Positions 17,025 to 36,571 of a stretch of 47,504 nt of DNA are shown in pieces. The notes under the pieces are model-generated. The model had not been told where the DNA came from. It saw nothing but the letters and a program-made list of their open reading frames with translations, and made no database searches. The stretch comes from Methanosarcina sp. Ant1. GTDB taxonomy: Archaea > Halobacteriota > Methanosarcinia > Methanosarcinales > Methanosarcinaceae. The translations under genes were made by a program, and so were the position numbers. Each line of letters starts with the position of its first letter. Within the stretch, counting starts at the first letter, position 1. The stretch spans positions 1 to 47,504 of the forward strand of contig MDTP02000058.1 of NCBI GenBank assembly GCA_001714685.2, written 5' to 3'.

Positions 17025-17889
17025 ACTCCAGGAAGACGAGGGTGTTGTTTGCCCCACCTGTGGGAGGGATTTCACTTATTTTCTGAAAACCTCTGGAATG
17101 CTCAGGCCGGACAGGCCAGTAGAGCAGCTGTCTCATGCCTGTATAGTTACGGTAGCACACAGAAATGAGCTTTTTCGACTCTGATTTTCTTCTTTTTATT
17201 ATATTATGGAGGTTCTGGAATATTCGCGCTTTCGGTTCAGCAAGCCCTGCTATGAGCACAGAGTCCCATTCAAGTTCTGCGAGTACGGTTTCATCCCCCT
17301 CGACAATAATGATTTCTTTTTCAAGACCAAAGTGCTTTACACATCTTTTTGCCAGAGTCACTGCTTCGGGATCCTTGTCTATGCCTATGCAGCGAATGCC
17401 ATATAATTTACTGAAAAGCAGCAGAGTAACAGGAAGGGGACCGCAGCCTATAAAAGCCAGCACTTCAATTCGGGGGGAATTCCGGACATGGACATTGATC
17501 AGATTTTCGTATCTCGGATATAGGGGAAAAGATTCCAGCATTTTCCAGGGGTTCTCATGGTTCAGGATTTTTCGTGCAAGCTGGGTCTCATGCAGGCTGA
17601 AAAAACTACTGTAACTGGAGTGGACTGCAGGAAGTAAGGACTGGATCACCGGGTCTCGAAGAACAAACTCACACATTTCATTGTCAACATCCAGATGCCC
17701 GAGTGTATCTAATTCAGAAAAGATCTCATAGAGTTCTTCCAGACTTGACTCTGCCATTGTAGTCAAATCAAATTCGTTAATTTTATTATAAAAGTGTAGC
17801 ATCTGGGATCTTATCTCGTATAGTTGCTTCCCATAATCTTGAAATAAGGCTGGAAAATTATTGCTTTCAACAATCTGTGCATTATTCAT
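17017..17889 (-). CDS. Nicotianamine synthase-like protein (first of pair)
   Basis: A protein of 290 residues. Family blocks include NHENPWKMLESFPLYPRYENLI, the SAM-binding motif VLAFIGCGPLPVTLLLFSK, RCIGIDKDPEAVTLAKRCV and a C-terminal KLISVCYRNYTGMRQLLYWPV. The layout is the same as in archaeal nicotianamine synthase and the related bacterial CntL used in staphylopine synthesis. I see no opine dehydrogenase (CntM) or histidine racemase (CntK) nearby, so a staphylopine-type end product is not supported. Proposed role: forming a nicotianamine-like nickel/cobalt chelator. Upstream are TTAGTTACA at 17906 and TATA-like sequence, shared with the opp operon candidate operator. Confidence 0.78.
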   Translation of the reverse strand: MNNAQIVESNNFPALFQDYGKQLYEIRSQMLHFYNKINEFDLTTMAESSLEELYEIFSELDTLGHLDVDNEMCEFVLRDPVIQSLLPAVHSSYSSFFSLHETQLARKILNHENPWKMLESFPLYPRYENLINVHVRNSPRIEVLAFIGCGPLPVTLLLFSKLYGIRCIGIDKDPEAVTLAKRCVKHFGLEKEIIIVEGDETVLAELEWDSVLIAGLAEPKARIFQNLHNIIKRRKSESKKLISVCYRNYTGMRQLLYWPVRPEHSRGFQKISEIPPTGGANNTLVFLECE

Positions 17890-18194: not shown

Positions 18195-18947
18195 TTACTC
18201 TTTCTGTCCCGAGATCAGAAAAATAGAGTTACTCCCGAGAAGCCTCTGCGGAAATGATTGCCTACTTTTTTTAAATTTCTGCACCTCCATGAGAGGATTA
18301 ACTGCAGTGTTTACAAATCCGGTTTCAGAAAAGAGGAGAGAAGCATTCTTTGAACTTATTTCCTCATAGAGAGGAAGAGAATTTCTGATTGGTCCATAAC
18401 AATCCTTGAAAATCTTTGAGCTTTGATTTTTTTTAACAAAAATATTTGTCCATTCAGAGACCACCCTTTTGATTCGTCTAGCTGGATGTGGACTAAACCA
18501 ATCTCCATCTATGGCAAAAATCCGTCCTCCGGATTTAAGGACCCTCTTCCATTCCCTAGCAGCACAGGAAGGTTGCGGAAGGGTCCATAGTAGGAATTTA
18601 TTTACGACTAGGTCGAAAGAGCTGTCCTCAAAAGGCAGTTTTTCCGCATCTCCATGAAAAAAATCAATTTCAAGACCCATATTCTCTGCATTGTGCTTTG
18701 CTTTCTCTAGCATGCTTTCTGAAAGATCCACACCTGTTACCTTATGCCCCATCTCAGCAAAAAGGAGGGCGAGAAAACCAGCGCCTGTTCCCACGTCCAG
18801 TACTTTCAAACTCTCATGGGAAGACAGGGAATTTTCAAATATTTGCTTCCACACAGTGCGTTCTTCTTCATCAAATCCATTTACCCCGTTTTTGTAAGTT
18901 GAAGACCTTATATTCCAGTAGTCGGCTATAACTTTCTTGCAGTCTAT
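18195..18947 (-). CDS. SAM-dependent methyltransferase with apparent ATA start
   Basis: A class I methyltransferase of about 250 residues. Motif I is VLDVGTGAGFLALLF, then GVDLSESMLEKA, and the segment LLWTLPQPSCAAREWKRVLKSGGR is shared with the two methyltransferases of the opp operon (RHLLWTLPHPDTA), so the three are paralogs. The first usual start codon is GTG at 18854. The conserved N-terminus (IADYWNIRSSTYKNGVNGFDEEER) continues in frame upstream to an ATA at 18945-18947, preceded by GGAGGA at 7-nt spacing. No ATG, GTG or TTG exists in that stretch before a stop. The gene may have lost its ATG or initiate at ATA; otherwise a shortened protein starts at 18854. The substrate is unknown. 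Confidence 0.75.
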   Translation of the reverse strand: MDCKKVIADYWNIRSSTYKNGVNGFDEEERTVWKQIFENSLSSHESLKVLDVGTGAGFLALLFAEMGHKVTGVDLSESMLEKAKHNAENMGLEIDFFHGDAEKLPFEDSSFDLVVNKFLLWTLPQPSCAAREWKRVLKSGGRIFAIDGDWFSPHPARRIKRVVSEWTNIFVKKNQSSKIFKDCYGPIRNSLPLYEEISSKNASLLFSETGFVNTAVNPLMEVQKFKKSRQSFPQRLLGSNSIFLISGQKE

Positions 18948-19343
18948 ACAAACTCCTCCAAGAAACCCTAAAAAGAGAGGTACTTACCTGCCCTTCTTTT
19001 GCATAAATTTATTCTATTTTCTTAGTTTGATTTTTAGAAGGCTTTCGTTTTTGTATCCGTTCTTCGATTGGGTTGGTAGACACCCCCCATTTTCCAAAGG
19101 TTAGAGTTTTAAAGCCTTTTTTCGGCAGTGTTGCAAATTTGATGCAAATTTAAAGTCAATTTTCATGCATTTTTAGGATTTGACCCTATGGAAGGTAACA
19201 TCCTTTAAGATCAGATTCTTTATGAAGACAGGTTTTGGCTTCAGACCCTATATTTTCAAGCTTTGTGTGTGTGTATTTTTTAATCCAATGATTTTTGTTC
19301 TTGCAATTTCCTCAGGCATATTTTATTCATTTCCTTGCCAGAA
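18948..19343. other. Intergenic region between methyltransferase and insertion sequence
   Basis: I see no gene. Weak similarity to the dispersed repeat occurs at gctttcgtttttgtatccgttcttcg (near 19040-19065). The segment gcagtgttgcaaatttgatgcaaat (near 19127) resembles an end of the 131-bp element after nikN. Both are too degraded to call. Confidence 0.3.
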
Positions 19344-20982: not shown

Positions 20983-21802
20983 AGTGTTTTCTTAGCTTTT
21001 GGCTCATACTAATGTTATTTTTCTTAAAATAAATTATTTCCTATCAGTAATTAATTGCATACAAAACTAATAAATTCTTCCATAGAAATAACAACAAAAT
21101 ATAATTTAACGATGTTAAATTAGGTGAATAGTTGGTGCCCAGAAAAATCGAAATATTCCAAGGAAATTGCGGAAAGTCAGTTTGAGAGTTAAACTCTAAG
21201 TTTTCCTTTTTTCCGAGCTCAGAGGATTTTAAGAGAGATGTAGCAATTTAAATGATAAAAGAGAACAGAAAGTATTGTAAAATCTGCGAAAAAGTATTGA
21301 GAAACCTTTCTCTGAAGAAAGACATAAGGGGGAGAACCACAGGGACTTTCCTGTGGCTCGGGTTGAAAATAAGTTAGATTATAGTTTTCAATGAATTATT
21401 TTGCATTTATATGCTATTTCTCAAAGAATCCAGTTTCTTTGTATCTTCTGGTGTATTAATACTAATTGTTATCTTCGTATGATAAATTATTTATTTTCTT
21501 GACTCTTCTATGTACAAATTAACATTAAAGTAAATATTAGTGTTACCAATTAACTCTAACGTGGTAGAAACAGGTGAATTTTGAGGGCTGGATTCTTGAT
21601 GCCGGAAATTAAAACAAAAAAGGCTTCGCCGAAGCAAAAAAACAGTTTGCAGTTACATGGAGAGTGGGGCGAGTCACCCCTTGTATCTTCGCCGACTCCT
21701 CATTTTGTCCAATTCTTCTCTCTTGTTTCTTTTCCCTTTCCTAATTGCTCTTTATCCCCTCCCGGGCTTCTCTATCTTGATCTGAACATTTACCGGGAGC
21801 CC
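20983..21802. other. Intergenic region upstream of the HExxH gene
   Basis: No separate gene is convincing. A perfect hairpin CCACAGG-gactt-TCCTGTGG occurs near 21340-21359 and a GC-rich one GGGGCGAGTCACCCC near 21667-21681. attagtgttacc (about 21536-21548) is a weak match to the TTAGTAACA-type half-site. The frame is open from 21581, but the extension before 21803 has unlikely composition. Confidence 0.35.
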
Positions 21803-22573
21803 ATGATAAAAGCTCTTATCAAAGAACAAAGTGAGGATCTGTACCGGCTAATAAAAAGGGTTCACTTTGACGGAAAATGTTATCGGGTAAAATGTGTGCG
21901 TTCCGGAGAATGGGAATACTGCTGGGATCTGGCGGTCCGAGTGCAATTTTTTGGAATGATGCAGGGATTAGCCTTTGAGCCGAAGAGGATAGTTTCCAGA
22001 AAAGACAAGAAAATAATATACAGGTCACTTGTCCTGGTAAATCCCTATGAGTTGTGGGAAAGAGAACTGGTCGAAAAGTTATGGAACCTTCAGGAGAGAA
22101 TCGAGTTCCTGATTGCAAAAATTCTCTTCCACGAATGCATCCATATCCTTATCTTCTTTGGAAAAACTCTGCCATCAGGTTTCGAGCAGACGGATATTTT
22201 CCTTGAATTCAGAGAGGTGCTCAAGTTTGCAAACTCGGAGAAACTGTGCCCTGAAAGTTGTGATGTCCAGTCCGGTCTCCGCAATCTGGCTGACCTTGTT
22301 ACAAACTTTCCCGAAAGTTCCGAAAAAAAGCTGGATCTGGTTCCTGAACTTTACGAATTCCTGATCCACGAAAAATACAGCATCAAAAAAACCGATATGG
22401 CTTTCGGCCTTTCCTGGAGCAACAGAAAAATTTCCCGGAACTATGCGAAGATCGCAGCATTGAAAATGGGCCCCTCTCTGGAATCCAATAAAAAATTTTG
22501 GAAGAAGGAGGTTAGTAGGCTGCATAAGGATTTGGAAGAGCTGTATGATAGGATTGATATAATCAGGCTCTGA
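21803..22573 (+). CDS. Unknown protein with HExxH motif
   Basis: A protein of 256 residues from the ATG at 21803, where GGGAG lies 5 nt upstream. The longer frame from 21581 adds a Pro/Ser-rich segment that looks untranslated. IAKILFHECIHILIFFGK contains HExxH (H-E-C-I-H) within a hydrophobic helix, the zinc-protease signature. A following ...GFEQTDIFLEF segment could supply a third ligand. There is no signal peptide. I do not recognise the family, so a metalloprotease is a hypothesis only. It lies between the nicotianamine-synthase and nik transporter genes. Basic residues near the C-terminus (SWSNRKISRNYAKIAALK) suggest a helix-turn-helix-like end. Confidence 0.6.
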   Translation: MIKALIKEQSEDLYRLIKRVHFDGKCYRVKCVRSGEWEYCWDLAVRVQFFGMMQGLAFEPKRIVSRKDKKIIYRSLVLVNPYELWERELVEKLWNLQERIEFLIAKILFHECIHILIFFGKTLPSGFEQTDIFLEFREVLKFANSEKLCPESCDVQSGLRNLADLVTNFPESSEKKLDLVPELYEFLIHEKYSIKKTDMAFGLSWSNRKISRNYAKIAALKMGPSLESNKKFWKKEVSRLHKDLEELYDRIDIIRL

Positions 22574-23165: not shown

Positions 23166-23889
23166 CGTTAATTTCTTGGTGAGTTTGCTGTCATATAGTT
23201 GACAAAACATTGAAAGTGAGTGGAGGGTTTAAGAAACTACATACCATGTGAAAAGATAACAATGCAGAAAAATAAGACGTTCTGAGATCCAACAGATCTC
23301 AACTATACTCTTCATATTTTCCCTTTTCTCCTTTTGAGCAATGATCCCTCAGATTTTCTTCTTGTTAAGTTTCACAATAGATAAGGGATTACAGTCAACA
23401 AAGTTAACGAGCTGATTACAGAACTAATATTAAGCTGGAATTATAAATTTAGTGTTATGTCATTTCGTGATTGATACTTTCAATGAGAATCCATGAAACC
23501 TTATTTCCTCCTCAATATGTATAATATACAGAAAATTTTCGGGATAAAAATGGCAGATATAGGGACATTTAATCTGATTAAAAAAGACAAATATAAGCGC
23601 TAAATCGGAGTTAAACAAAAAATTATCGAATAAAGTAATATCAAAACATATATATGTAATACTACACAATCTGATCTTACCAAGGACATTCTTTAGAAAT
23701 GATCAGTGGGAACGTTGTCAGGGATTTGGATAAGTTGAGTCATCTCAGGAAAACACTCTCAAAAAGCTCATTTTAAGAGTGTTATTATTTCTCGCTTAAG
23801 GGAAATTTTCCATATGATAAAGAATTACTTAATCAAAAATGGATTCCCGGTTGGAACCATAGGAAATAAGTTAAGGGAAGAGAGAAAAA

Positions 23890-24615
23890 ATGCACATTCC
23901 AGATGGATATTTAGGGCCGTATACCTATATTGCGTTTTGGATCATTATGATCCCTATTTGGTATTACGCCGGAAAGAAGGTGAGCACAGAGCTTAGGTCC
24001 AGACAGGTCCCTCTGCTGGCTCTATCAGCCGCGTTCTCATTTGTAATAATGATGTTCAACGTGCCTATTCCGGGAGGCAGCACGGGCCATGCCGTGGGAG
24101 CTGCAATTATAGGCATAGTCCTGGGTCCATGGGCAGCAGTAATAACCATTTCTGTAGCTCTGGTATTGCAGGCACTGATGTTCGGTGATGGAGGAATAAC
24201 GGCCGTAGCCGCTAACTGTTTCAACATGGGAGTGGTGATGCCCTTTGTCGCTTACTACGCCTACAAGCTTATTAGCGGAAATTCGGAAATCACTTCCCCT
24301 ATAAGAATTATTGCTTCGGCCATTGCTGGCTACTTATCTCTAACGATGGCCGCCACGTTTACGGGCATCGAGTTCGGAATCCAGCCCCTTTTGCATCACA
24401 CGGCCGCCGGAGTCCCACTTTATATGCCCTATCCCCTGAGCATAACTGTTCCTGCTATGGTACTTGAACACGTTCTTGGATTCAGTATCCTGGAAGCACT
24501 GATTACCGCACTTATTTTTGCCTATATCCAGAAAACGGATACAACTATATTATACGGAGAGACATCTGAAGAGCAGAAGAACAAAATGAGAAGGGCAGTC
24601 CCAATTGAGGTGTGA
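23890..24615 (+). CDS. nikM: ECF nickel/cobalt transporter substrate-specific subunit NikM/CbiM
   Basis: A protein of 241 residues starting MHIPDGYLGP. In this family the N-terminal amine, His2 and further histidines bind the metal, so the exact start matters; the ATG at 23890 gives it. Six or seven hydrophobic segments follow, with NVPIPGGSTGHAVGAA and FGDGGITAVAANCFNMG, both family signatures. It forms the membrane S-component with NikN, NikQ and NikO. Nickel rather than cobalt is inferred from the nikR and nicotianamine-synthase context; motifs alone do not decide. Its stop overlaps the Shine-Dalgarno region of nikN. Confidence 0.9.
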   Translation: MHIPDGYLGPYTYIAFWIIMIPIWYYAGKKVSTELRSRQVPLLALSAAFSFVIMMFNVPIPGGSTGHAVGAAIIGIVLGPWAAVITISVALVLQALMFGDGGITAVAANCFNMGVVMPFVAYYAYKLISGNSEITSPIRIIASAIAGYLSLTMAATFTGIEFGIQPLLHHTAAGVPLYMPYPLSITVPAMVLEHVLGFSILEALITALIFAYIQKTDTTILYGETSEEQKNKMRRAVPIEV

Positions 24616-24617
24616 AT

Positions 24618-24932
24618 ATGGAAAAGATAGTAAGAAACTTAGCCATTGGCCTTCTAGTGCTGATAATTTTAGCGCCTTTGGGCCTTTTAGCCGTCGGCGA
24701 GACCTTCGGCGAGTGGGGGCCGGAGGAGCTCCAGGAAAAGCTCGGTTTTGTGCCTCCTGGGCTTGAGCAACTCTCTGGACTCTGGAACGCACCAATGTCG
24801 GATTATGCCTTCCCCGGCGGCGGGGAATCGATGACCGTATCTGCGGCAGCGTACATTCTGTCCGGAGTAATAGGCGCAGTAGTCTGCGGTGGCCTCCTGT
24901 ACGTCGTAGGAAAGAAGGTTGCCAAAAATTAA
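24618..24932 (+). CDS. nikN: PDGLE-type small subunit NikN/CbiN
   Basis: A protein of 104 residues with an N-terminal membrane segment (LAIGLLVLIILAPLGLLAVG) and a C-terminal one (AAAYILSGVIGAVVCGGLLYVVG). Between them is FGEWGPEELQEKLGFVPPGL and a NAPMSDYAFPG motif, as in PDGLE/CbiN proteins that follow NikM. GAGGTG overlaps the end of nikM and sits about 5 nt before the ATG at 24618, so the two are translationally coupled. Two small mobile elements separate it from nikQ. Confidence 0.82.
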   Translation: MEKIVRNLAIGLLVLIILAPLGLLAVGETFGEWGPEELQEKLGFVPPGLEQLSGLWNAPMSDYAFPGGGESMTVSAAAYILSGVIGAVVCGGLLYVVGKKVAKN

Positions 24933-24940
24933 ATTTTCAG

Positions 24941-25071
24941 ACAGTGTCGCGAATTTGCTGTAAATTGAAAGTCAAAGCTTTGCATACCGTATATAATTTG
25001 TCTCTCCCTATGTGGGAGTCTTTTCCAACAACTCTTGGGATTTGTGATTTACAGAAAAAATGACACACTGT
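24941..25071. mobile_element. 131-bp inverted-repeat element after nikN
   Basis: The ends are ACAGTGTCGCGAATTTGCTG and, inverted, ACAGTGTGTCATTTTTTCTG, followed on both sides by TAAAT. There are no genes inside. It begins 9 bp after the nikN stop. Related degraded copies lie near 22767 and 19127. Confidence 0.5.
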
Positions 25072-25111
25072 TTTTTTTCATTTTAATCTTTAACCTTAAC
25101 TCGGACAAATT

Positions 25112-25547
25112 GGCTCTTCGCTGTTTTGTCTGGGTTGAAAATGATTATCTAGTGCTTCGATTCCAAAATATGTGGTAAAATAAATTTATGAAAACCACGG
25201 AGAGCATGGAAAACACGGAATTAAGAAACAAAGGGCACATTTTTTTCCGCGCTTTCCGCGTTTTCCGTGGTTAATAGATTCTTGATTAGGCTTGTCAGTG
25301 TCCGCATGTGCTTTCAGTCCTTAATGAATCTCATGGTTTTAAACTAAATATTTGAGTTCATAACTGCAATTGGCTACTGAATTATGTTATTGATTTTGGA
25401 ATCGATGCACTAGTTGTAAAGTGACCAAATCAAAAAGAAATTATCGATTCTGAAGTGACTTCCCACACTAATGTTTTCAAATATTATAGGTGTTGTATCT
25501 GGTTTAGATAGTAGCTCTAAATTGTCCACTCGAAATAGCGAAGAGCA
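25112..25547. mobile_element. MITE with ISL3-type ends, interrupted by a second MITE
   Basis: The left end GGCTCTTCGCTG...gggttgaaaat and the right end ...ctcgaaatagcgaagagc match the 177-bp element at 6614-6790. Removing the internal 265-bp element leaves about 171 bp, close to the same size. It lies between nikN and nikQ. Confidence 0.7.
25149..25413. mobile_element. 265-bp MITE, copy 2, nested
   Basis: The ends are CTAGTGCTTCGATTCCAAAA and, inverted, CTAGTGCATCGATTCCAAAA. The sequence is the reverse complement of the element at 11681-11933. It sits inside the ISL3-type MITE, so it inserted later. Confidence 0.8.
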
Positions 25548-25756
25548 TCATACCGCCAAAATGACGTATCCCTATTAGAGAATGCAAAAAACAAACTAAA
25601 GTACTTACATTAGAGGCTATTGATGTTTGAAAATTCCGGATTAAAAAATACTTATTCCCTAAAGATGAATGGTTAAGGTTTTAATTTATCCCTGTGATGA
25701 TTTGGACGCAAAATTTTAATAGCTTACTGGAATTTAGGTTTAAAAACAGGTGAATG

Positions 25757-26692
25757 ATGATCCCAGACTGGATGAAAGAAGTGGATATCGGTCCATGCCG
25801 GTGCTCTGCGATATATCACGGCAAGAAGGGCTTCGTAGGGAAGACAATTGATGGAATCTTAAGCTTTTTGGAAGAAGCTTTTATCTCGGATAGCTTCTCT
25901 AGAAGAAATGGCTTTCTGCAGAGCTTGGATCCTAGGGCCAAGCTGGTTTCCATCCTGGCCTTGATATTCGCAACGAGTTTGATCGGCGACCTGAGATTAT
26001 TGATCTTTGTTTATATGCTTACGCTGCTGTTTTCTTATCTCAGCAAGATCGATGTTTTATTCTTCATCAAGCGGGTCTGGCTTTTCATACCTATCTTTGC
26101 AGGCATCATCGCCATACCCATGATCTTCAATATCTTCTTTCCAGGAGATCCTCTAATTAGTTTAGTATATCTCGGTCCTGGTGCTCACCTGGGGCCATTT
26201 TCACTGCCGGATAGTATCTACATCACCAGACAGGGCGTCAATAATGCTGTGATATTTACCATGCGTGTAGCAACATGCGTATCTGCCGTAGTCTTGCTCT
26301 ATCTCACTACGCCCCAGAATGTCCTCTTTAAGTCTCTGCGCACAGTGGGCGTTCCCAAGATCTATGTTTTCACGCTGGAGATGACCTACAGGTACATCTT
26401 CCTGCTGATGAATCTGGTTCGCGAGATATACGTTGCCAAGAAAGCCAGAACCATAAGGTCTAGAAGCATGTTCGAGGAGCAGAAGTGGGTCGGCGGACGC
26501 ATAGGCTATACGCTGATAAGGTCTCTGGATATGAGCGAAAAAGTCCATGCAGCCATGATGTCCAGGGGCTACAACGGCGATGTTAAGATAATGCAGGAGT
26601 TCAAAATGCGCAATCGCGATTACATTTCAGTGGTAATTGCGATATCCATGAGTGTAGTGTTAGTGTTGATCTCCCAAAACATCATCAGGTGA
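25757..26692 (+). CDS. nikQ: ECF transporter transmembrane subunit NikQ/CbiQ
   Basis: A protein of about 311 residues with five to six membrane helices between residues about 65 and 305. Family marks are SLDPRAKLVSILALIFATSL, then MRVATCVSAVVLLYLTTP, LRTVGVPKIYVFTLEMTYRYIFLL, and the coupling motifs AKKARTIRS and AAMMSRGYNG that contact the ATPase (Ala-Arg-Gly-like). The N-terminus has a Cys/His stretch (GPCRCSAIYHGKKG), which is unusual. Two ATGs are possible; AGGTGA touches the first (25754), so the second (25757) may be used. It is separated from nikN by 824 bp of small elements and followed 7 bp later by nikO. Confidence 0.87.
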   Translation: MIPDWMKEVDIGPCRCSAIYHGKKGFVGKTIDGILSFLEEAFISDSFSRRNGFLQSLDPRAKLVSILALIFATSLIGDLRLLIFVYMLTLLFSYLSKIDVLFFIKRVWLFIPIFAGIIAIPMIFNIFFPGDPLISLVYLGPGAHLGPFSLPDSIYITRQGVNNAVIFTMRVATCVSAVVLLYLTTPQNVLFKSLRTVGVPKIYVFTLEMTYRYIFLLMNLVREIYVAKKARTIRSRSMFEEQKWVGGRIGYTLIRSLDMSEKVHAAMMSRGYNGDVKIMQEFKMRNRDYISVVIAISMSVVLVLISQNIIR

Positions 26693-26699
26693 TACAAAT

Positions 26700-27533
26700 A
26701 TGGAAAGAATTTTTGACGTGAGGGATGTATCATATGCATACATGGGAAAGATCAATGCCTTAAAAGATATCAGCTTCAAAGTGAACTCAGGCGAGCAGAT
26801 ATCTATAATGGGCGCGAACGGTAGCGGCAAATCGACTCTGCTGACCCTTCTGGATGGGCTTGTATTTCCTACTTCAGGAGAATTCTATGCCTTTGACAGT
26901 AAGATAAGCGAAGACGTTTTCGATACAATTAAAGATAATGAATTTAGATCATATTTCCGGAAAAAAGTAGGATTTGTTTTTCAGAACTCCGATGTGCAGC
27001 TCTTCTCGCCCACGGTCTTTGAGGAGGTTGCCTTTGGACCCCTGCAGCTCAATATGACTTCGGAAGAGGTCAAAACCAGAGTTATGGAAGTCCTAGAGAT
27101 GATCGGAATCACTAAGCTTAAAGATCGATCTCCTCACACTCTGAGCGGGGGAGAGAAGAAAAAAGTATGTATAGCCGCTGTTTTGGCTATCAACCCGGAT
27201 GTTCTCCTATTGGATGAACCCACTGCCGGACTGGATCCGAGAACCCAACTCTGGCTGATAGAGCTATTGCAGGAGCTGGGAAGAGCGGGAAAGACGATAA
27301 TTACTGCCACTCATGACCTTGAAACAGTAGCGCAGATTAGCAAAAGAGCAATAGTCATGGGTGAAGACCATCGGATTGTGGTGGATGGGAATGTGGAAAA
27401 GGTGCTCGATAACCTGGAACTTCTCCTTTCCACAAATCTAATCCATGAACATACGCACATTCACGGCAAGCTTGTGCATAAGCATATGCACGCTGCCAAC
27501 GATGAGGAGCACATACACGAGCAAAAAAATTGA
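26700..27533 (+). CDS. nikO: ECF transporter ATPase NikO/CbiO with histidine-rich tail
   Basis: A protein of 277 residues. The Walker A motif is MGANGSGKST, the Q-loop VFQNSD, the signature LSGGEKKKV, Walker B VLLLDEPTAGLD and the H-loop TATHDLE. The C-terminal tail (about 250-277) is histidine-rich (HEHTHIHGKLVHKHMH...HIHE), which may bind nickel or cobalt. The core is CbiO-like and powers NikMNQ. GGTGAT lies just before the ATG. It is the last gene of the group; a convergent binding-protein gene follows after 594 bp. Confidence 0.9.
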   Translation: MERIFDVRDVSYAYMGKINALKDISFKVNSGEQISIMGANGSGKSTLLTLLDGLVFPTSGEFYAFDSKISEDVFDTIKDNEFRSYFRKKVGFVFQNSDVQLFSPTVFEEVAFGPLQLNMTSEEVKTRVMEVLEMIGITKLKDRSPHTLSGGEKKKVCIAAVLAINPDVLLLDEPTAGLDPRTQLWLIELLQELGRAGKTIITATHDLETVAQISKRAIVMGEDHRIVVDGNVEKVLDNLELLLSTNLIHEHTHIHGKLVHKHMHAANDEEHIHEQKN

Positions 27534-28127: not shown

Positions 28128-29738
28128 TCAGCTTTCAATGTATATTTCAGGATTCAGGAAGAAACCGTGCACCGTTGTGTCAAAGACCAGACCTTTTACG
28201 GAGTCTTTTTTGGCTACAGCGCAGCCGTAATAGCAGACTGGGATTATTGGCTGTTCCTCGTGCACAAAAGCCTGTATCTCATTGAATTTTGCGTACCTTT
28301 TTTTGAGATCTGCGATTCCGTTTGCTTCGGTTATCATGGCATCAAGCTTGGGATTTGAATATCCTCCCCGGTTTCCATCTCCTCCTGTTATGTACATGTC
28401 ATTGAAGACATAACTCGGGTCTGCAACATTTGAAACTCCCATAGTAGAAAGCAGAAGGTTCCAGTCGCCACTCTTCAGCCTGTCTGATATACCTCCCCAT
28501 TCCATTACTTCGTACTTAATGTCAATTCCAAGGTTTTTGTACTGGGCTGCCATGGTTTCTCCTATAGGCGGAAGCCCGGGGCGGTTTGGATAGGTTAGAA
28601 GGCCCAATTTAAGGGTTTTTCCATCTTTTTCCCTTATGCCGTCTCCATTGGAATCCACCCATCCAGCTTCAGTAAGCAGCCTTTTTGCTTTTTCTGGGTC
28701 ATAATTATAGGGTTTCAGATCACTGTTAACCCAGTGCATTTCAGGAAGGAAAATACCGATTGCAGGTCTTCCAACTCCAAAGAGAACGTTTTTGGCCATA
28801 TCTTCCCGATCTATTCCGTAAGAAAGTGCTTGCCTGACTCCTTTATCTGAAAGAGCCGTATTGTTTGCATTCGTTTCAAGAATGTATTCGTTGGCAGTGT
28901 TAAATTTTTCAACGCTGATTCCAGGTAAGGCATCAAGCCGGTCTACTTCGTTGTAGGGAACATCAAGAGTATAATCTATTTCTCCGCTTTCAATTGCCAT
29001 TGCCCGGGTATTTGGGTCTTCAATTGTCTTGAATGTAATCTTGTCAAGCCTGGGTTTGCCTCCCCACCAGTAGTCATTTTTCACAAATACAAGAGTGTAA
29101 ACCTTATCGTCATAGGACTCTATTTTGAAAGGTCCCGTTCCTATAGGGACTCCCATTTCCCCGTTTTTATCTATTGATTTCGGGCTGAAGATAACTGCTT
29201 TTGAATAATGGAGAGTCTCTGGAAGCACAGGATTTGGTTCTTTTGTTTTAATTTGCAGGGTATGATTGTCCAGCACGTTGATACTTCCAATCTTTGTCAA
29301 CTGGTCCAGCTTTTTGTTATTTTTTATATCCCATTCCAGGGAAAACTTCACGTCTTCTGCTGTAAATGGATCTCCGTTGCTGAAGGACACATTTTTTTTC
29401 AGTTCGAATTCCCATGTATTATTGTCAACAGCTTTCCAGGAAGTCGCAAGGTAAGGTTTTAAGGAAAAGTCGTTGTTGCATTTTACCAGGTATTCGGTCA
29501 CAAGCTCGTTAGTTTCTTCACATACAAGCGGGTCTATGTTATTGATTGCCCACATTACCCCCATTGTGAGATTTTTATCTCCTGATGTTTTTTGTATTGG
29601 AAGAGAGGTCGATTCCTCTGTTGCGACTTTCTCTTTTCCGGCTGATCCAGTGCAGCCCGAAATGCAAAGAGATGCGGTCAGGAGAATGAGAATTAGTATT
29701 AAAGTAAAGACTGAAGTCCCTTTATTATCTATTTTCAT
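28128..29738 (-). CDS. ABC transporter substrate-binding lipoprotein (SBP family 5), second copy
   Basis: A protein of 536 residues. The signal sequence with lipobox LCISGC places Cys29 as the likely lipidated residue. The SBP_bac_5 domain follows, with FSLKPYLATSWK, NTWEFELKKNVSFSNGDPFTAEDVKFSLEWD, IGTGPFKI and DPNTRAMAIESGEIDYTLDVP, as in NikA/OppA/CntA proteins. Last gene of the leftward opp operon, after the second methyltransferase. Proposed role: binding extracellular nickel, a chelate or peptide and delivering it to the permease pair. It is related but not identical to the SBP at 34112. The ligand is not readable from sequence. Confidence 0.88.
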   Translation of the reverse strand: MKIDNKGTSVFTLILILILLTASLCISGCTGSAGKEKVATEESTSLPIQKTSGDKNLTMGVMWAINNIDPLVCEETNELVTEYLVKCNNDFSLKPYLATSWKAVDNNTWEFELKKNVSFSNGDPFTAEDVKFSLEWDIKNNKKLDQLTKIGSINVLDNHTLQIKTKEPNPVLPETLHYSKAVIFSPKSIDKNGEMGVPIGTGPFKIESYDDKVYTLVFVKNDYWWGGKPRLDKITFKTIEDPNTRAMAIESGEIDYTLDVPYNEVDRLDALPGISVEKFNTANEYILETNANNTALSDKGVRQALSYGIDREDMAKNVLFGVGRPAIGIFLPEMHWVNSDLKPYNYDPEKAKRLLTEAGWVDSNGDGIREKDGKTLKLGLLTYPNRPGLPPIGETMAAQYKNLGIDIKYEVMEWGGISDRLKSGDWNLLLSTMGVSNVADPSYVFNDMYITGGDGNRGGYSNPKLDAMITEANGIADLKKRYAKFNEIQAFVHEEQPIIPVCYYGCAVAKKDSVKGLVFDTTVHGFFLNPEIYIES

Positions 29739-29756
29739 AGAATTTCCCTTCCCAAA

Positions 29757-30518
29757 TTATTTTTTCCCGTAAATCAAATGGTATTCGTAATTGAAAGCTA
29801 TCCGTTTTCGGAAAGACATAGCTCTCTTCTGGATTTCGATAATCTCCTTTAGGTCCAGATCCTTTACATTTTCAAACCCTGCCTTCCAGAAGTATTCAAG
29901 CGTTTTTTCAGGAGGGGCTCCGTAAGGGTTTGGGAGTTCGTTATTGATTTCTCTGGAGTAATGCCCCTTTCTTGGGTTCCTTCTCTCAACAAGCAAAGTA
30001 CAGAAATCACTTACAAGCCTCCTTAACTTTGTTTCGAGTGAGCCGTCATTCCATAGCCCATCCACAACAATAAGCACTCCTCCTTTCCTAAGCACTTTTT
30101 TCCAGTTTCGAACCGCAGTATCCGGGTGCGGAAGGGTCCAGAGGAGGTGGCGGTTGACAACAACATCAAAAGTTTCCGCATCAAATGGAGGGACTTCGGC
30201 ATCTCCTTTTTTGAAGGTGTTATCAAACACTTTCTTAGACGCCTTTTCCCTGGCTTTTGCAAGCATTTTTTCCGAAAGGTCAAGACCTGTAACACGATGT
30301 CCCATCTCTGCAAACAGGAGCCCGATTTCACCGGTCCCGCAGCCTACATCGAGTACTTCTAGCCTTCTTGGGGGGAGCAGGCTTTTGAAAAGTCGTTTCC
30401 ATGCTTCCCTTTCTATTTCACTCTGAATTCCATGTCCTTCTTGGCTGTCGTAGGTCTCGGATGAGCCATCCCAGACACGGGCAATATTCTGTTTTATCTG
30501 GTTTTCCTGAGTAGTCAT
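29757..30518 (-). CDS. SAM-dependent methyltransferase in opp operon (second)
   Basis: A class I methyltransferase of 253 residues. Motif I is LEVLDVGCGTGEIGLLFAEMGH, then GLDLSEKMLAKA, DAEVPPFDAETFDVVVNRHLLWTLPHPDTAVRNWKKVLRKGG. The N-terminus has GHGIQSEIEREAWKRLF, shared with the methyltransferase at 35751. Its start overlaps the stop of the upstream ATPase by 4 nt (ATGA), so it is co-translated with the transporter, and the binding-protein gene follows 19 bp later. Methylation of a metallophore or other transported ligand is a hypothesis from context. Confidence 0.88.
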   Translation of the reverse strand: MTTQENQIKQNIARVWDGSSETYDSQEGHGIQSEIEREAWKRLFKSLLPPRRLEVLDVGCGTGEIGLLFAEMGHRVTGLDLSEKMLAKAREKASKKVFDNTFKKGDAEVPPFDAETFDVVVNRHLLWTLPHPDTAVRNWKKVLRKGGVLIVVDGLWNDGSLETKLRRLVSDFCTLLVERRNPRKGHYSREINNELPNPYGAPPEKTLEYFWKAGFENVKDLDLKEIIEIQKRAMSFRKRIAFNYEYHLIYGKK

Positions 30519-31231
30519 GTATTGATTCCTCTTTTTATATTTTCAACTGAAGTAATAGTTCCATCTTCGAGATAGGCAATCCTGTGGCAGACCCTCCTTA
30601 ACACTTCAAGGTCATGAGAGATCAGCAGGTAGGAAACTCCAGTTTCTTTCTGGAGTTTTTGCATAAGGCGCAGGATCTGAGCCTGGACTGAGACATCAAG
30701 CATTGAGGTTGGCTCGTCCGCTACCACAAAAGCTGGAGAAAGAGACATGATCCTGGCGAGCACAATCCTTTGGATCTCACCTCCGCTGAGGTGGCTAGGA
30801 TAGCGAGCCAGATGTTCCGGGCGGAGTCCTGTGAGTTCGGCCAGTTCTTCTCCTCTCTCCAAAAGGGCATTTTTTTTGAGCCCTGAATGGAGCTTCAGGG
30901 GCTCTATGAGATTCTCAAAAGCTTTCATGCGTGGATCAAGGGAAGTTTCTGGGTGCTGGAAAATCATCTGAACTTTCGGGCGCAATTCTCTAAACTCCTT
31001 TTTGCCCATTCTCAGGATATCTTTTCCCTGAACAAGGATTTTCCCATATGTGGGTTTTTCAAGTCCTACAATACACCTTCCAATCGTGGTCTTTCCGGAT
31101 CCGCTTTTTCCAAAAAGTCCAAACGTTTCTCCCGCCTCTACGGAAAAACTGACGTTTTTGAACACCTCTGAATTCCCAAACTTCATTGCCAGCTCGTTTA
31201 CTGCAAGGACTGGAAGTGACACCTTATCCAA
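30515..31231 (-). CDS. ABC transporter ATPase, OppF/NikE type
   Basis: A protein of 238 residues. Walker A is FGKSGSGKTT, Q-loop MIFQHPETS, signature HLSGGEIQR, Walker B FVVADEPTSMLD and H-loop LISHDLEVL. It is shorter than typical OppF because the C-terminal oligopeptide extension is minimal, as in NikE. It overlaps the preceding ATPase by 34 nt. It pairs with the ATPase at 31198 to drive the permeases. Confidence 0.9.
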   Translation of the reverse strand: MDKVSLPVLAVNELAMKFGNSEVFKNVSFSVEAGETFGLFGKSGSGKTTIGRCIVGLEKPTYGKILVQGKDILRMGKKEFRELRPKVQMIFQHPETSLDPRMKAFENLIEPLKLHSGLKKNALLERGEELAELTGLRPEHLARYPSHLSGGEIQRIVLARIMSLSPAFVVADEPTSMLDVSVQAQILRLMQKLQKETGVSYLLISHDLEVLRRVCHRIAYLEDGTITSVENIKRGINT

Positions 31232-32139
31232 CCTCCATTATGAGTTTTCATCTCAGGGTGCTGTCTGGAACACTCAAAGCCCGAATTTTTGCACCTTTCA
31301 TGAAAAAAACAACCCTCTGGAAGCCTTATCCTGCTTGGACTCTGCCCTATCAGGGGAACAAGCCCATTTCGAGGATGAGCCCTGATAAGCCCTCTTGTAT
31401 AGGGATGCAGTGGTTCGCTCAGGACTTTTGAAGCCTCGTCCAACTCAACTATCTCCCCTGCATACATTACGGCTATCCGGTCGCAAACCTCAAGAGCCAG
31501 ATCGAGGTCATGGGTGATCAGCAGCATCGTTTTACCGTACTCTTTTTTTATTTTAGTGAAAAGGTCTACTGCACCTGCTTTTGCCTCGGGGTCAAGCCCT
31601 TTAGTGGGTTCATCCGCAATCAGAAGTTCGGGCTCAAAGGAAAGAGACATGCAGGCTATCAGCCTCTGCCTCATGCCTCCGGAAAGCTGATGAGGATAGA
31701 GATCTAAAAGTTTTTCAGGGTCTTTTAAAAGGAGTTTTTCCATGAGCTTTAGGGCTTTTTTGATTCCCTCTTTTTTATCAATCCCCCTTTCTTCGTAAAC
31801 CTCCTTTATCTGAAGCCCGTTTTTCAAAACAGGGTTCAGAGACCCGGCCGGGTTCTGCGGCATGAGTGCGATATGCTTTCCCCTGATTTTCCTGAGTTCT
31901 GAGGGTTTAATGGAAAAAATGTCCTGACCTTGGAAAAAAATATTTCCTGAAACCTCTGCATTTGTCGGCAGAAGCCTGAGTATAGCAAGTCCGATAACCG
32001 ATTTTCCTGATCCGCTTTCTCCTATAAGTCCGAAGGTTTCCCCTTCCTTTATATCAAAGGATGCATGAGAGACCGCTTTCACACTGTCCTCTCCTGTGTG
32101 AAACTCTACAGAAAGGTCGTTTATCTCAATCAGGCTCAA
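31198..32139 (-). CDS. ABC transporter ATPase, OppD/NikD type
   Basis: A protein of 313 residues. Walker A is IGESGSGKSVIG, Q-loop LMPQNPAGSLNPV, signature HQLSGGMRQR, Walker B LLIADEPTKGLD and H-loop LITHDLDLAL. The C-terminal oligopeptide extension has a four-cysteine cluster (CFFHERC...FECSRQHP...WIRCHF). Its start overlaps the permease stop by 4 nt (ATGA). Confidence 0.9.
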   Translation of the reverse strand: MSLIEINDLSVEFHTGEDSVKAVSHASFDIKEGETFGLIGESGSGKSVIGLAILRLLPTNAEVSGNIFFQGQDIFSIKPSELRKIRGKHIALMPQNPAGSLNPVLKNGLQIKEVYEERGIDKKEGIKKALKLMEKLLLKDPEKLLDLYPHQLSGGMRQRLIACMSLSFEPELLIADEPTKGLDPEAKAGAVDLFTKIKKEYGKTMLLITHDLDLALEVCDRIAVMYAGEIVELDEASKVLSEPLHPYTRGLIRAHPRNGLVPLIGQSPSRIRLPEGCFFHERCKNSGFECSRQHPEMKTHNGGWIRCHFQSLQ

Positions 32140-33038
32140 TATATTTCCCCCCCTTCATGGTTCGGATCAAGGATGTCTCTGATTCCGTCTCCAAGTATAC
32201 TGAAGATCACCACAAAGAAAGTGATTGCAAGTCCAGGGAAGATTGTCTGGTACGGAGCAGTCCTCATAAATTCCTTTCCCGCAGAAAGCATCGCTCCCCA
32301 TTCAGGAATATCTGCAGGTAGCCCTATTCCAAGAAAACTGAGTGTGGCAATTGAAAGAATTACATGCCCAAGGTCGATTGTGGCAAGTACAAGAACAGGA
32401 GCAATGGCATTGGGTACAATGTGCTTTCTGATAATGTAAAAATCGCCTGCACCGCTTGTAACAGCAGAAAGGACAAACTCCTGTCTTTTAAGGGATAGAA
32501 CCTGCCCCCGCATCACTCTTGCATAATGTGCCCACTGGACTATGGAAAGAGCAAGTATGAGGTTAAAAACTCCGCTGCCAAGAACTCCCAGAATTGTAAG
32601 GGCAAATATGACGCCAGGAAACGAAAGAAAGATATCTATAACCCTTGAAAGAGTTTCATCCACAATTCCTCCGTAATAGCCTGCAGCACAACCCATAACG
32701 GTTCCAAAAAGCAAAGAAATAAGAACTACTCCAAAGGCGATTGAGAGAGAGGTCTGGGCACCTATGAGGATCCTGCTCAGAAGATCCCTTCCAAGGTAAT
32801 CCGTGCCCAGAAGATGCTCACCTGATGGGCTAAGGTTTTTGTTTTTGAGGTCAATTGTATTTGGATTGTAAGGAGAAATTAAAGGGGCAAAAAGGGCAAG
32901 CCCGATGAAAAGCAAAAGCGCTACCAGAGCAAAGAGCATATCTTTTCTTTGAAAAACTTTTTTTACAAAATCACTGCCATAAGCTTCTGGTAGCAACAAG
33001 CCTTCTTTCCTGAATTTATCAGCAAATATATTATCCAT
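32136..33038 (-). CDS. ABC transporter permease, OppC/NikC type
   Basis: A protein of 300 residues with a cytoplasmic N-terminus, then a first membrane helix LFALVALLLFIGLALFAPLI. The NLSPSGEHLLGTDYLGRDLLSRIL motif is diagnostic of OppC/DppC/NikC. The EAA-type loop is seen around SAVTSGAGDFYIIRKHIVPNAI. Four to five further helices follow. It pairs with the permease at 33043, 4 bp upstream. Confidence 0.9.
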   Translation of the reverse strand: MDNIFADKFRKEGLLLPEAYGSDFVKKVFQRKDMLFALVALLLFIGLALFAPLISPYNPNTIDLKNKNLSPSGEHLLGTDYLGRDLLSRILIGAQTSLSIAFGVVLISLLFGTVMGCAAGYYGGIVDETLSRVIDIFLSFPGVIFALTILGVLGSGVFNLILALSIVQWAHYARVMRGQVLSLKRQEFVLSAVTSGAGDFYIIRKHIVPNAIAPVLVLATIDLGHVILSIATLSFLGIGLPADIPEWGAMLSAGKEFMRTAPYQTIFPGLAITFFVVIFSILGDGIRDILDPNHEGGEIY

Positions 33039-33042
33039 AATA

Positions 33043-33984
33043 TCAGCCGTACCTTATCCGCGGGTCTAAATGCGTATAGATTATATCGACAATGAAATTC
33101 ACAACTAGAAACATCGTAACAATGGCAAGTACACAGCCCTGTATCATGGGCAGGTCTCTGGCTGAAATAGAGTCTACGAGGAGGCTTCCTATACCTGGCC
33201 AGGCAAAGATCTTTTCAATAACAACAGCTCCCCCGAGCAGGCTTCCCATTTGAAAACCAATAACAGTAACAATAGGGAGCATTGCGTTTTTAAGAGCGTG
33301 ACGGCTTACTATTTTCCACATTGGAAGCCCTTTGGATTTCGCAAACATGATATATTCCTGCCCCATAGTTTCGAGCATGCATGTCCTGGTGATCCTCATA
33401 ACAGCAGCAACTGAATGAAGGGAAAGAGCTACTGCAGGCAAAAACAGGTTTTCTAAGTTTCCGTATCCTGATACAGGAACAAGTTTCAGCTTAAGAGAAA
33501 ATATCAGGATGAGAATCAGCGCCACCCAGAATCCAGGCATAGAAACCCCAAAAAGTGTTGCAACCCTCAGGATATGGTCCGAGAGCTGGTTTTCTCGAAG
33601 AGCAGAATAAATTCCCAGGCTTATTCCTGCAACAGCTGCAAGAACCATACTTGCCCCTGCAAGCTGGATCGTTGCCGGAAGACGCAAAGCCAGTAAGTAC
33701 AGGACAGGTTTTTTAAAGACATAGGAAGTCCCTATATCGCCTGTTAGTATGGCTTTTTTCACCCATGTGTAAAACTGCAGATAAAGTGGATCGTTAAGGT
33801 TGTACCGGCTTGAAATCTGCTCAAGCTGTTCTTTAGTCACGCTGTCTTCGATGCCTACAATGGTGTGCTTGATAATCAGCTCAGCTGTGCCTCCTGGAAT
33901 CAAGTTCACAAGGAAAAAGGTCAGAGCACAGACAGCAAATACTGTAATTGCCATGAACCCCACCCTTTTTACAAAATAGTTCAT
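33043..33984 (-). CDS. ABC transporter permease, OppB/NikB type
   Basis: A protein of 313 residues. The N-terminal helix MNYFVKRVGFMAITVFAVCALTFFLV is standard for OppB/NikB. The rest carries RLPATIQLAGASMVLAAVAG, RITRTCMLETMGQEYIMFAKSKGLP and the EAA loop HALKNAMLPIVTVIG, then VVIEKIFAWPGIG. The gene follows the first binding-protein gene after a 127-bp gap that holds two hairpins. Confidence 0.9.
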   Translation of the reverse strand: MNYFVKRVGFMAITVFAVCALTFFLVNLIPGGTAELIIKHTIVGIEDSVTKEQLEQISSRYNLNDPLYLQFYTWVKKAILTGDIGTSYVFKKPVLYLLALRLPATIQLAGASMVLAAVAGISLGIYSALRENQLSDHILRVATLFGVSMPGFWVALILILIFSLKLKLVPVSGYGNLENLFLPAVALSLHSVAAVMRITRTCMLETMGQEYIMFAKSKGLPMWKIVSRHALKNAMLPIVTVIGFQMGSLLGGAVVIEKIFAWPGIGSLLVDSISARDLPMIQGCVLAIVTMFLVVNFIVDIIYTHLDPRIRYG

Positions 33985-34024
33985 GCTTCCTCCTCAACGC
34001 TGGCAGATGGCAGGTTTGCCTGTC

Positions 34025-34077
34025 CACTCGCATCATTTCGAGTGAAGGGAAGGGCACAGGCTTAAAACCTGTGCTTT
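34025..34077 (-). promoter_or_regulatory. Two intercistronic hairpins after the first binding-protein gene
   Basis: Perfect stems are GCACAGG/CCTGTGC (34054-34060 with 34068-34074) and CACTCG/CGAGTG (34025-34030 with 34039-34044). They sit in the only large gap of the operon, directly downstream of the binding-protein gene. Such hairpins often stabilise or partly terminate transcripts so that the binding protein is made in excess. Confidence 0.5.
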
Positions 34078-34111
34078 TTCCAGACTCTCTTCAGCTTACT
34101 CCCTTCAGCTT

Positions 34112-35719
34112 TTACTTTTCGATATACATATCAGCATTTATGCGATAGTCATGGGCTGTCGGGTCAAACACATAACCTTTTACGTAGTCTTTCTTCACTA
34201 TCGCACAACCGTAGTAAGCCACAATTATCATAGGCTGTTCTTCATTCACGATAGCTTCGACCTCATTGAATTTCTTATAGCGTTCATTCAGGTCTGTGAT
34301 TTTTCTGGCATCTTTAATCAGAGAGTCTACTTTAGGATTGGAATACCCAGGCCCATTGTCAGCCCCGCCTGTCATATACCAGTTAGTAAGAATGTAGTCT
34401 GGATCCGGAACCATGGCAACATTGGCCGCTAAAAGGTAGAGGTCCCAGTTTCCATTCTTCCTTCTTTCGTCTAGTGACCCGAACTCCTGAACCTGTGTTT
34501 CGACACTTATGCCTGCCTCCTTCAACTGAGCAGCGATAGCTTCAGCCATTGGGGGAAGCCCTGGGCGCTGGGAGTAAGTCATTAAGTTCAATTTAAGGGG
34601 TTTTCCGTCCTTTTCCCTTATCCCGTCCCCGTTAGTGTCCACCCAGCCTGCAGCTTTCAGGAGTTCATCGGCTTTCTTAAGGTCCCTGGTGTAGGGCTTC
34701 AAATTCTTATTTGCCCAGACCATCGTGGGCAGGAAGGGGCCCGCAGCGGGTTCTCCAACATTATAGAGCACATGTTCGGCTATGTCCTGCCTGTCAATAG
34801 CATAAGACATTGCCTGTCTTACTCTGATATCATCAAGTGGTGAGTGTTTCAGGTTTAGCTCAAGCTTGTAGTCTCTTGGAGTTTTGTATTTCTCAACGGT
34901 TATGCCGTCTATTGCGTTAATCCGGTCCGTTTCACTGTATGGTACATCAGCGGTAAAATCAACTTCCCCATTTTCGATTGACATTGCCCTTGTGTTTGGG
35001 TCAGGTATCCCTTTAATGATCATCTTGTCAAGCCCAACTTTTCCTCCCCACCAGTTTTCGTTCCTCACAACTGTGAGAATCCCGCTCTGCTCATCGAAAG
35101 AGTCAAATTTATAAGGTCCTGTTCCTACAGGCTTTACGTACTTTCCGTCTTTATCAAAGGACGAAGGGCCTATTATCGCAGTTGTGGGATAATGCAGGAC
35201 TCCGGGAACAATCGGGTTGAGTTCAGAGGTTTTAATCCTGAAGGTGTAATCATCTACAACGTCAATTGAACTTGCTTTTAGCATGGAAGCGACTCTCGAG
35301 TCTTTTGCAATGACATTTTCAAGGGAGGATTTAACTTCCTTTGCAGTCATTTTGGTCCCATCATGGAAAGTAACATCATTCTTTAGATTGAACTCCCAGG
35401 TATTGTTATCAATCTGTTTCCATGAAGTTGCAAGCCCGGGTTTCAGCGAGAAATCAGGATTTGCACCAACCAGCGTTTCGGTTATGGCAGCTTTTTCACA
35501 GACCAGGGTGCCACCATCTCCATCCACTATATCGATCGATTTTATCTCCCACATTTCTCCAAGTACAAGGGTGTTTGATTGGGTGGTATTGTTGTATTGG
35601 GAGGTATTATTTTGCTTTGTTTCCTCTCCTTTCGTGCTGGTGCACCCGGAGGTTATTAGTATGGCACAGGTCAGCAGGAGAATTAACAGTATCATTAGGG
35701 TGGATCGTTTATTTTTCAT
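34112..35719 (-). CDS. ABC transporter substrate-binding lipoprotein (SBP family 5), first copy
   Basis: A protein of 535 residues. The signal peptide ends at LITSGCTST, giving a lipobox-like Cys near residue 26, followed by an Asn/Thr-rich linker. The SBP_bac_5 domain shows FSLKPGLATSWKQIDNNTWEFNLK, TFHDGTKMTAKEVKSSLE and VGTGPYKFDSF, as in NikA/CntA-type proteins. GGAGAT lies a few bases before the ATG. It is the second gene of the operon after the first methyltransferase (31-bp gap). Two diverged binding proteins share one permease-ATPase set, so they may recognise different forms of a chelate. Confidence 0.9.
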   Translation of the reverse strand: MKNKRSTLMILLILLLTCAILITSGCTSTKGEETKQNNTSQYNNTTQSNTLVLGEMWEIKSIDIVDGDGGTLVCEKAAITETLVGANPDFSLKPGLATSWKQIDNNTWEFNLKNDVTFHDGTKMTAKEVKSSLENVIAKDSRVASMLKASSIDVVDDYTFRIKTSELNPIVPGVLHYPTTAIIGPSSFDKDGKYVKPVGTGPYKFDSFDEQSGILTVVRNENWWGGKVGLDKMIIKGIPDPNTRAMSIENGEVDFTADVPYSETDRINAIDGITVEKYKTPRDYKLELNLKHSPLDDIRVRQAMSYAIDRQDIAEHVLYNVGEPAAGPFLPTMVWANKNLKPYTRDLKKADELLKAAGWVDTNGDGIREKDGKPLKLNLMTYSQRPGLPPMAEAIAAQLKEAGISVETQVQEFGSLDERRKNGNWDLYLLAANVAMVPDPDYILTNWYMTGGADNGPGYSNPKVDSLIKDARKITDLNERYKKFNEVEAIVNEEQPMIIVAYYGCAIVKKDYVKGYVFDPTAHDYRINADMYIEK

Positions 35720-35750
35720 TTAGGAATCTCCTTTTCCTGTCTGATGGCTT

Positions 35751-36518
35751 TTATTTCCGGCCGCAGACGAGATAGTATTGATAGCTGCTTAGAACTCGTT
35801 CACTTAATGGCATGCTCTCTTTCTGGGTCCCTATAACTTCTTTCAGGTCAAAAGTTCGAATATCCTCAAAACCCGTACTCGACAGGTACTCTTCAACTTT
35901 TTCAAGTGGGGCCCCTCCAGCGTGCGGAAGACTGGCTTTGAGTTTCTCCGAATATCCGCAGTGCCCTTTTCGGGGGTCTTTTCTTTCGACAAGCAGGGTC
36001 AGAAGGTCACTTCCAGCCCTTCGAATCTTTGTTTCCAGGCTTCCGTTGTCCCAAACTCCATCAATAATCACAACCCTTCCACCTTTTCGCAGCACTTTTT
36101 TCCAGTTTTTGATTGCAGTGTCAGGGTGAGGAAGAGTCCAGAGAAGATGGCGGTTAAACACAATGTCAAAAGAAGAGGCATCATAATGTGGATTTTCGGC
36201 ATCTACTTCCTCAAATGTTATGTCAACTCTAAAAGCTTCAGCCTTTGATTTAGCTACTTTTAGCATTTTTCTTGAAATGTCGATTCCCGTAACCTCATGC
36301 CCCATCTCCGAAAACAGTATGCTTAACTCCCCTGTACCGCAGCCGACATCGAGGATCTTCAAACCTCTCTCCGGGAATACCTCCCGAAAAATACGTTTCC
36401 AGGCATCTCTTTCTTTTTCACTCTGGATTCCGTGTCCTGCGTGGGTGTCAAAAGTTTCGGATGCAAGGTCCCATTTATGGGCTACAAGCTCTTTAATCTG
36501 AAGTTCTGGCGCAGACAT
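35751..36518 (-). CDS. SAM-dependent methyltransferase, first gene of opp operon
   Basis: A class I methyltransferase of 255 residues. Motif I is KILDVGCGTGELSILFSEMGH, then GIDISRKMLKVAKSKA and FDIVFNRHLLWTLPHPDTAIKNWKKVLRKGGR. The N-terminus LASETFDTHAGHGIQSEKERDAWKRIF matches its paralog at 29757. It is the promoter-proximal gene, 54 bp downstream of a candidate operator. That a methyltransferase leads the operon suggests its product is needed with the transporter. The substrate is unknown. Confidence 0.88.
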   Translation of the reverse strand: MSAPELQIKELVAHKWDLASETFDTHAGHGIQSEKERDAWKRIFREVFPERGLKILDVGCGTGELSILFSEMGHEVTGIDISRKMLKVAKSKAEAFRVDITFEEVDAENPHYDASSFDIVFNRHLLWTLPHPDTAIKNWKKVLRKGGRVVIIDGVWDNGSLETKIRRAGSDLLTLLVERKDPRKGHCGYSEKLKASLPHAGGAPLEKVEEYLSSTGFEDIRTFDLKEVIGTQKESMPLSERVLSSYQYYLVCGRK

Positions 36519-36571
36519 TAACCACTACATGCCTACCTGTGATTAATAACTTTCGATTTTGTATTACTAAT

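Follow-up and report, generated by a model that had tools for sequence, protein, structure and literature searches.

A methyltransferase-bearing Opp/Nik importer operon of Methanosarcina and its possible role in nickel-chelate uptake

Main finding

The operon described here is located at positions 28128-36518, on the minus strand, of the window, the whole analysed stretch of 47,504 nucleotides of Methanosarcina DNA. The linkage, tree and operator evidence favours uptake of nickel chelates together with a methyltransferase directed at the chelator; the reaction itself we infer. With a probability of roughly one half, the operon imports nickel on a small organic chelator and its methyltransferases, MT1 and MT2, methylate that chelator, which here is probably nicotianamine-like. 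The metal, presumably nickel, would enter through the Opp/Nik importer bound to a chelator that may previously have been exported, and MT1 and MT2 would be dedicated methyltransferases acting on the chelator in the cytoplasm, either during its synthesis or after import of the loaded chelate. In this organism, the chelator would most likely be a nicotianamine-like aminocarboxylate that the tandem synthases NAS1 and NAS2 produce and a third methyltransferase, MT3, methylates.

Organisation of the importer operon

The gene order is MT1-SBP1-PermB-PermC-ATPase-ATPase-MT2-SBP2:

35751-36518, minus strand: MT1, leading the operon, a class I SAM methyltransferase (Pfam Methyltransf_11, 9e-24)
34112-35719, minus strand: SBP1, family-5 solute-binding lipoprotein, NikA-like (SBP_bac_5, 2e-93)
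33985-34111, minus strand: strong hairpin in the SBP1-PermB intergenic gap
33043-33984, minus strand: PermB, NikB/OppB permease (NCBIfam Opp2B, 331 bits, cut-off 350)
32136-33038, minus strand: PermC, NikC/OppC permease (TIGR02790 NikC, 309 bits, cut-off 358)
31198-32139, minus strand: ATPase D, NikD/OppD, with ABC_tran and oligo_HPY domains
30515-31231, minus strand: ATPase E, NikE/OppF (best NCBIfam match NikE, 219 bits, cut-off 333)
29757-30518, minus strand: MT2, paralog of MT1 (Methyltransf_11, 6e-25)
28128-29738, minus strand: SBP2, paralog of SBP1 (SBP_bac_5, 2e-92)

The open reading frames, the Pfam matches and the sequence bear out the layout given in a preliminary description of this DNA; all eight genes were found where it had placed them, as was the 4-nt overlap between the ATG of MT2 and the TGA of ATPase E (ATGA, 30518-30515). 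The genes are tightly spaced except for a gap of 127 nt between SBP1 and PermB. A hairpin also occurs in the SBP-PermB gap of most of the related operons examined (L015-L021), with unrelated sequences. Identity is 57% between MT1 and MT2 and 52% between the two binding proteins, both of which carry a lipobox-like SGC motif at the N-terminus.

The operon contains the complete NikABCDE gene set: a binding protein, a pair of permeases and a pair of ATPases. Every importer gene missed the NCBIfam nickel cut-offs (NikA/B/C/D/E equivalogs); with the NikA model TIGR02294 (cut-off 393 bits), SBP2 scored 256 bits and SBP1 224 bits. The best fold matches of the SBP1 model (pLDDT 87) were mostly nickel-binding proteins, the top ones including E. 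coli NikA, SaNikA (4xkr) and the nickel-binding protein of B. halodurans (3t66), and peptide-binding proteins ranked close behind. The AlphaFold model of MT1 (pLDDT 90) matched the folds of small-molecule methyltransferases, for example UbiG and phosphoethanolamine N-methyltransferases, and these predicted neighbours leave the choice of substrate unfixed. Among the matches listed, no specific NCBIfam model reached its cut-off on the methyltransferase family. Three identities were rejected: the arsenite methyltransferase ArsM, since a 29-row alignment had no column of at least eight cysteines; the corrinoid protein-associated methyltransferase CpaM, with 76.7 bits for MT2 and 79.7 for MT1 versus a cut-off of 180; and the DVU_1556 family, whose scores were far under the cut-off.

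Nickel-related genes in the same window

Further nickel-related genes, absent from the preliminary description, are found no more than about 14 kb from the operon:

14369-14790, plus strand: NikR, nickel-responsive regulator (NikR_C, 9e-33; likely start ATG 14369)
16203-17024, minus strand: NAS2 (PF03059, 1e-31; PDB 3fpe, 3e-30), whose probable start, a GTG, overlaps the stop of NAS1
17017-17889, minus strand: NAS1, nicotianamine-synthase family (PF03059, 7e-19; PDB 3fpe, 2e-38)
18195-18944, minus strand: MT3, third methyltransferase of the same family, 37% identical to MT1
23890-27533, plus strand: CbiM, PDGLE-domain protein, CbiQ and CbiO, an ECF-type Ni/Co importer (Pfam and NCBIfam)

Both predicted synthases passed the PF03059 gathering cut-off of 27.1 bits (NAS1, 68.7; NAS2, 110.5). 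Residue E81 of MtNAS is kept in 38 of 39 synthases and Y107 in all 39, and both residues are present in NAS1 and NAS2; in a plant NAS the corresponding residues are essential, according to PMC10248798. No PF03059 matches other than NAS1 and NAS2 were found in the genome at E 1e-5, and a plasmid search with NAS1 gave no match. Two more NikR genes are encoded elsewhere in the genome.

MT3 was found by searching the 4.29 Mb genome, in which the window is contig 58, with MT1, together with a fourth, decayed copy interrupted by several stops on another contig (G000:C233:1229-1968, L003). The homologous start position of MT3 (window 18930-18960, minus strand) contains no ATG, GTG or TTG, and a probable ATA start lies near 18944 behind ggaggag. 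This ATA codon behind a G-rich stretch resembling a ribosome-binding site is kept in four synthase- or Cbi-linked MT3 orthologs (window, L031, L213 and L240).

MT3 and synthase genes are neighbours in seven congeners, with gaps of about 0.4-1.2 kb, and most of the congeners examined have the synthase pair inside their CbiM/Q/O locus. In one genome (G339), one MT3-type gene adjoins the synthase pair (L214) and another lies inside an SBP-PermB-C-D-E operon (L242); the latter ortholog has an ATG start. MT1 and MT2 are about 10 kb from the synthase pair here, and in several relatives they are far apart from it or on different contigs. The presence of a third gene of the same family beside chelator-synthase genes suggests that these organisms methylate nickel-acquiring chelators.

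Distribution of the methyltransferase family

Across the phylum, 295 genomes were surveyed with thresholds of E 1e-35 for the methyltransferase family and E 1e-8 for PF03059; 72 had the methyltransferase family, 24 had PF03059 and 16 had both. Their co-occurrence (16/24 versus 56/271; odds ratio 7.7, p 5e-6) is uncorrected for the relatedness of the genomes. As 56 of the 72 methyltransferase genomes have no PF03059 match at E 1e-8, the NAS product is not the general substrate of these methyltransferases; the family must have wider substrates, act on scavenged chelates or have another role.

The gene neighbourhoods were compared in 115 fetched loci plus the window, where 124 archaeal family members scored at least 190 bits. 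For 95 of these, Opp/Nik-type importer genes were found within 6 kb; 8 adjoin synthase genes, 10 have only some other ABC ATPase nearby, and 11 have none of these neighbours. The loci were picked by a methyltransferase or synthase match and not by their neighbours, the related genomes are non-independent, and the methyltransferase profile was built largely from importer-linked members. With 95 of the 124 members this close to importer genes, the linkage exceeds chance. The earlier statement that importer operons rarely contain methyltransferases fails for this family in archaea, and the linkage is conserved across the archaeal phylum.

Among the ten members near another ABC ATPase, two scanned ones (L081 and L088) adjoin FecB/FecCD importers, and one (L024) appears to belong to a molybdate-type cluster, judged from residues. 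At L101:3096-9131, family methyltransferases lie beside genes whose products, on inspection by eye, resemble NifH and NifD/E. In a scan of named genomes, the closest relatives of MT1 come from Methanosarcina and other Methanosarcinaceae; most lower matches in that contig scan cover the general methyltransferase core only.

Duplication history and absence of SBP2 in congeners

The operon with two methyltransferases occurs in 14 of 31 genomes of the genus. The region downstream of MT2 was read in all 14: SBP2 is intact only in the window, a 103-aa remnant is present in G354, and the others have none; tblastn found no SBP2 remnant in L015, L130 and L132. Outside the genus, G025 and G043, both of one other genus, carry an SBP2 of complete or almost complete length; in one of the two, the genome search shows an in-frame stop. 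Since 13 of the 14 congeneric operons have no intact SBP2, the methyltransferase has no fixed binding-protein partner; SBP2 is missing or broken in these operons, and MT2 therefore persists without it.

In the SBP tree, SBP2 falls outside SBP1 and the single-copy operons, and a single SBP1+SBP2 group received an AU p of 0.03; the methyltransferase tree gave p 0.475 on the same duplication order, no decision either way. A joint duplication of the methyltransferase-SBP pair, as the preliminary description supposed, is therefore compatible with the trees and not proven, and the lack of an intact SBP2 in 13 of the 14 operons weakens its strict form. Distances of methyltransferases and binding proteins in 48 operons are correlated (r 0.56; Mantel p 0.0005), with a partial r of 0.25 once the permeases are accounted for. 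The trees, once built, did not reveal independent histories combined with a lack of conserved linkage, the outcome that the same description had named as speaking against it.

The methyltransferase tree (49 rows) grouped MT3 with other synthase-linked plus importer-linked genes, and a further synthase-linked group, which belongs to a different family of the phylum, was nested among importer-linked methyltransferases. Synthase-linked methyltransferases thus form two separate branches with three state changes, and a single clade was rejected (p 2e-60).

NikR-like operators

The delta-proteobacterial NikR consensus is GTGTTAC-N13/14-GTAACAC, as given in PMC545781. With this consensus relaxed to GTRTTAC/GTAAYAC, a relaxation fitted by eye to some of these data, sites with at most two mismatches were found at 14 of 80 methyltransferase-led or SBP-led operons, 9 of 32 synthase genes and 7 of 317 other genes, an enrichment at the first two groups. 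The window contains the following sites upstream of MT1 and CbiM:

36540-36567, minus strand: upstream of MT1, a degenerate NikR-like operator with 4 mismatches that shares bases with a TATA-like, A/T-rich stretch
23635-23662, plus strand: NikR-like operator (2 mismatches) upstream of CbiM

Most relatives have a better site (1-3 mismatches) at the position upstream of MT1. Nine of ten CbiM upstream regions, the window included, contain a site with 1-3 mismatches, and L213 has none. Near NAS1 of the window, there is no NikR-like site below 4 mismatches. A TTAGTTACA-type motif common to the upstream regions of MT1 and NAS1 was rejected: it has two exact sites, and overall its matches do not exceed those in shuffles.

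Comparison with known systems

The locus is similar to NikABCDE with NikR in the SBP-B-C-D-E order, the NikA-like fold and the NikR-like operators of relatives, but differs from it in the two methyltransferases and second binding protein of the operon and in the missed curated nickel cut-offs. Like staphylopine-type systems (CntKLM and CntABCDF), it combines a nicotianamine-synthase-family enzyme with an Opp/Nik importer having a family-5 binding protein; unlike them, the linked tailoring gene is a methyltransferase, and SBP2 and SBP1 reach 203 and 178 bits versus the CntA cut-off of 800. A staphylopine-type opine metallophore was rejected, as the genome yielded no match to opine dehydrogenase PF10100. 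NAS1 and NAS2 share homology with MtNAS, the archaeal thermonicotianamine synthase (PDB 3fpe), and keep E81 and Y107, but these predicted synthases are two tandem copies, with a methyltransferase next to them and a CbiM/Q/O locus close by.

Proposed function and alternative explanations

The link between ligand methylation and import proposed in the preliminary description is strengthened by the phylum-wide linkage, the synthase-adjacent methyltransferases and the nickel-type operators; its chemical side, the methylation reaction, remains a prediction. Metal release through modification of the chelate, which was also proposed, is possible. Counting against the nickel-chelate reading are the 56 of 72 methyltransferase genomes without a PF03059 match, the degenerate MT1 operator, the missed nickel cut-offs and the FecB/FecCD, molybdate-type and nitrogenase-like neighbours of family members; no chelator exporter was identified.

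It is rather unlikely that the methyltransferases act after import on chelates scavenged from the environment, for metal release or ligand detoxification, and that the NAS cluster forms a nickel system of its own, controlled by the same regulator. The many methyltransferase genomes without a nicotianamine synthase (56/72), the members accompanying FecB/FecCD importers and the distance of MT1 and MT2 from the synthase pair, here and in several relatives, would fit such a division, but an enzyme of the same family directly adjoins synthase genes in two separate branches, and the presence of the two families is correlated in the survey (p 5e-6, relatedness uncorrected). Less probable still is an importer of peptides or another non-metal nutrient, with methyltransferases modifying the nutrient or a derived metabolite: NikR-like operators upstream, mostly nickel proteins among the best SBP1 fold matches and the CbiM/Q/O and synthase context argue against it, even if many peptide transporters belong to Opp/Nik importers and SBP family 5, peptide-binding proteins are close behind in the fold search and all nickel-specific NCBIfam cut-offs were missed.

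Modification of an importer protein or lipid, or a regulatory role, would explain why the methyltransferases travel with the importer, as seen in their distance correlation with the binding proteins (r 0.56), but seems improbable, as they are also found with unrelated types of importer, or next to synthase genes where no Opp/Nik importer is present, and their fold neighbours are mostly small-molecule methyltransferases. An incidental linkage, an inherited arrangement with no shared function, is very improbable: related sequences make the counts non-independent, but the linkage appears repeatedly, in many of the phylum's families as well as in two synthase-linked branches, and the survey already disfavours this explanation.

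Returning to methylation of a nickel chelator, a more specific scheme is put forward tentatively, with the odds against it: in methanogens, paired synthases and a dedicated methyltransferase family may make methylated nicotianamine-like nickelophores, imported via NikR-controlled Opp/Nik transporters carrying methyltransferases of their own, which might mark, load or unload the chelator. A full-text literature search, with most subscription papers outside its reach, found no paper describing such a pathway. If the scheme is true, genetically tractable Methanosarcina would provide a candidate methylated-metallophore pathway with its importer, and a widespread methyltransferase family would gain a function.

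Other features of the window

The protein encoded at 21581-22573 has no Pfam match and contains a HECIH (HExxH-type) motif invariant in three aligned sequences; it was rejected as a member of the system, being genus-wide and mostly distant from these genes. The Rfam family sRNA41 (RF02905) is represented four times in 8.4 kb (7055-7167, 13291-13407, 13655-13770 and 15345-15458), with three of the copies around NikR.
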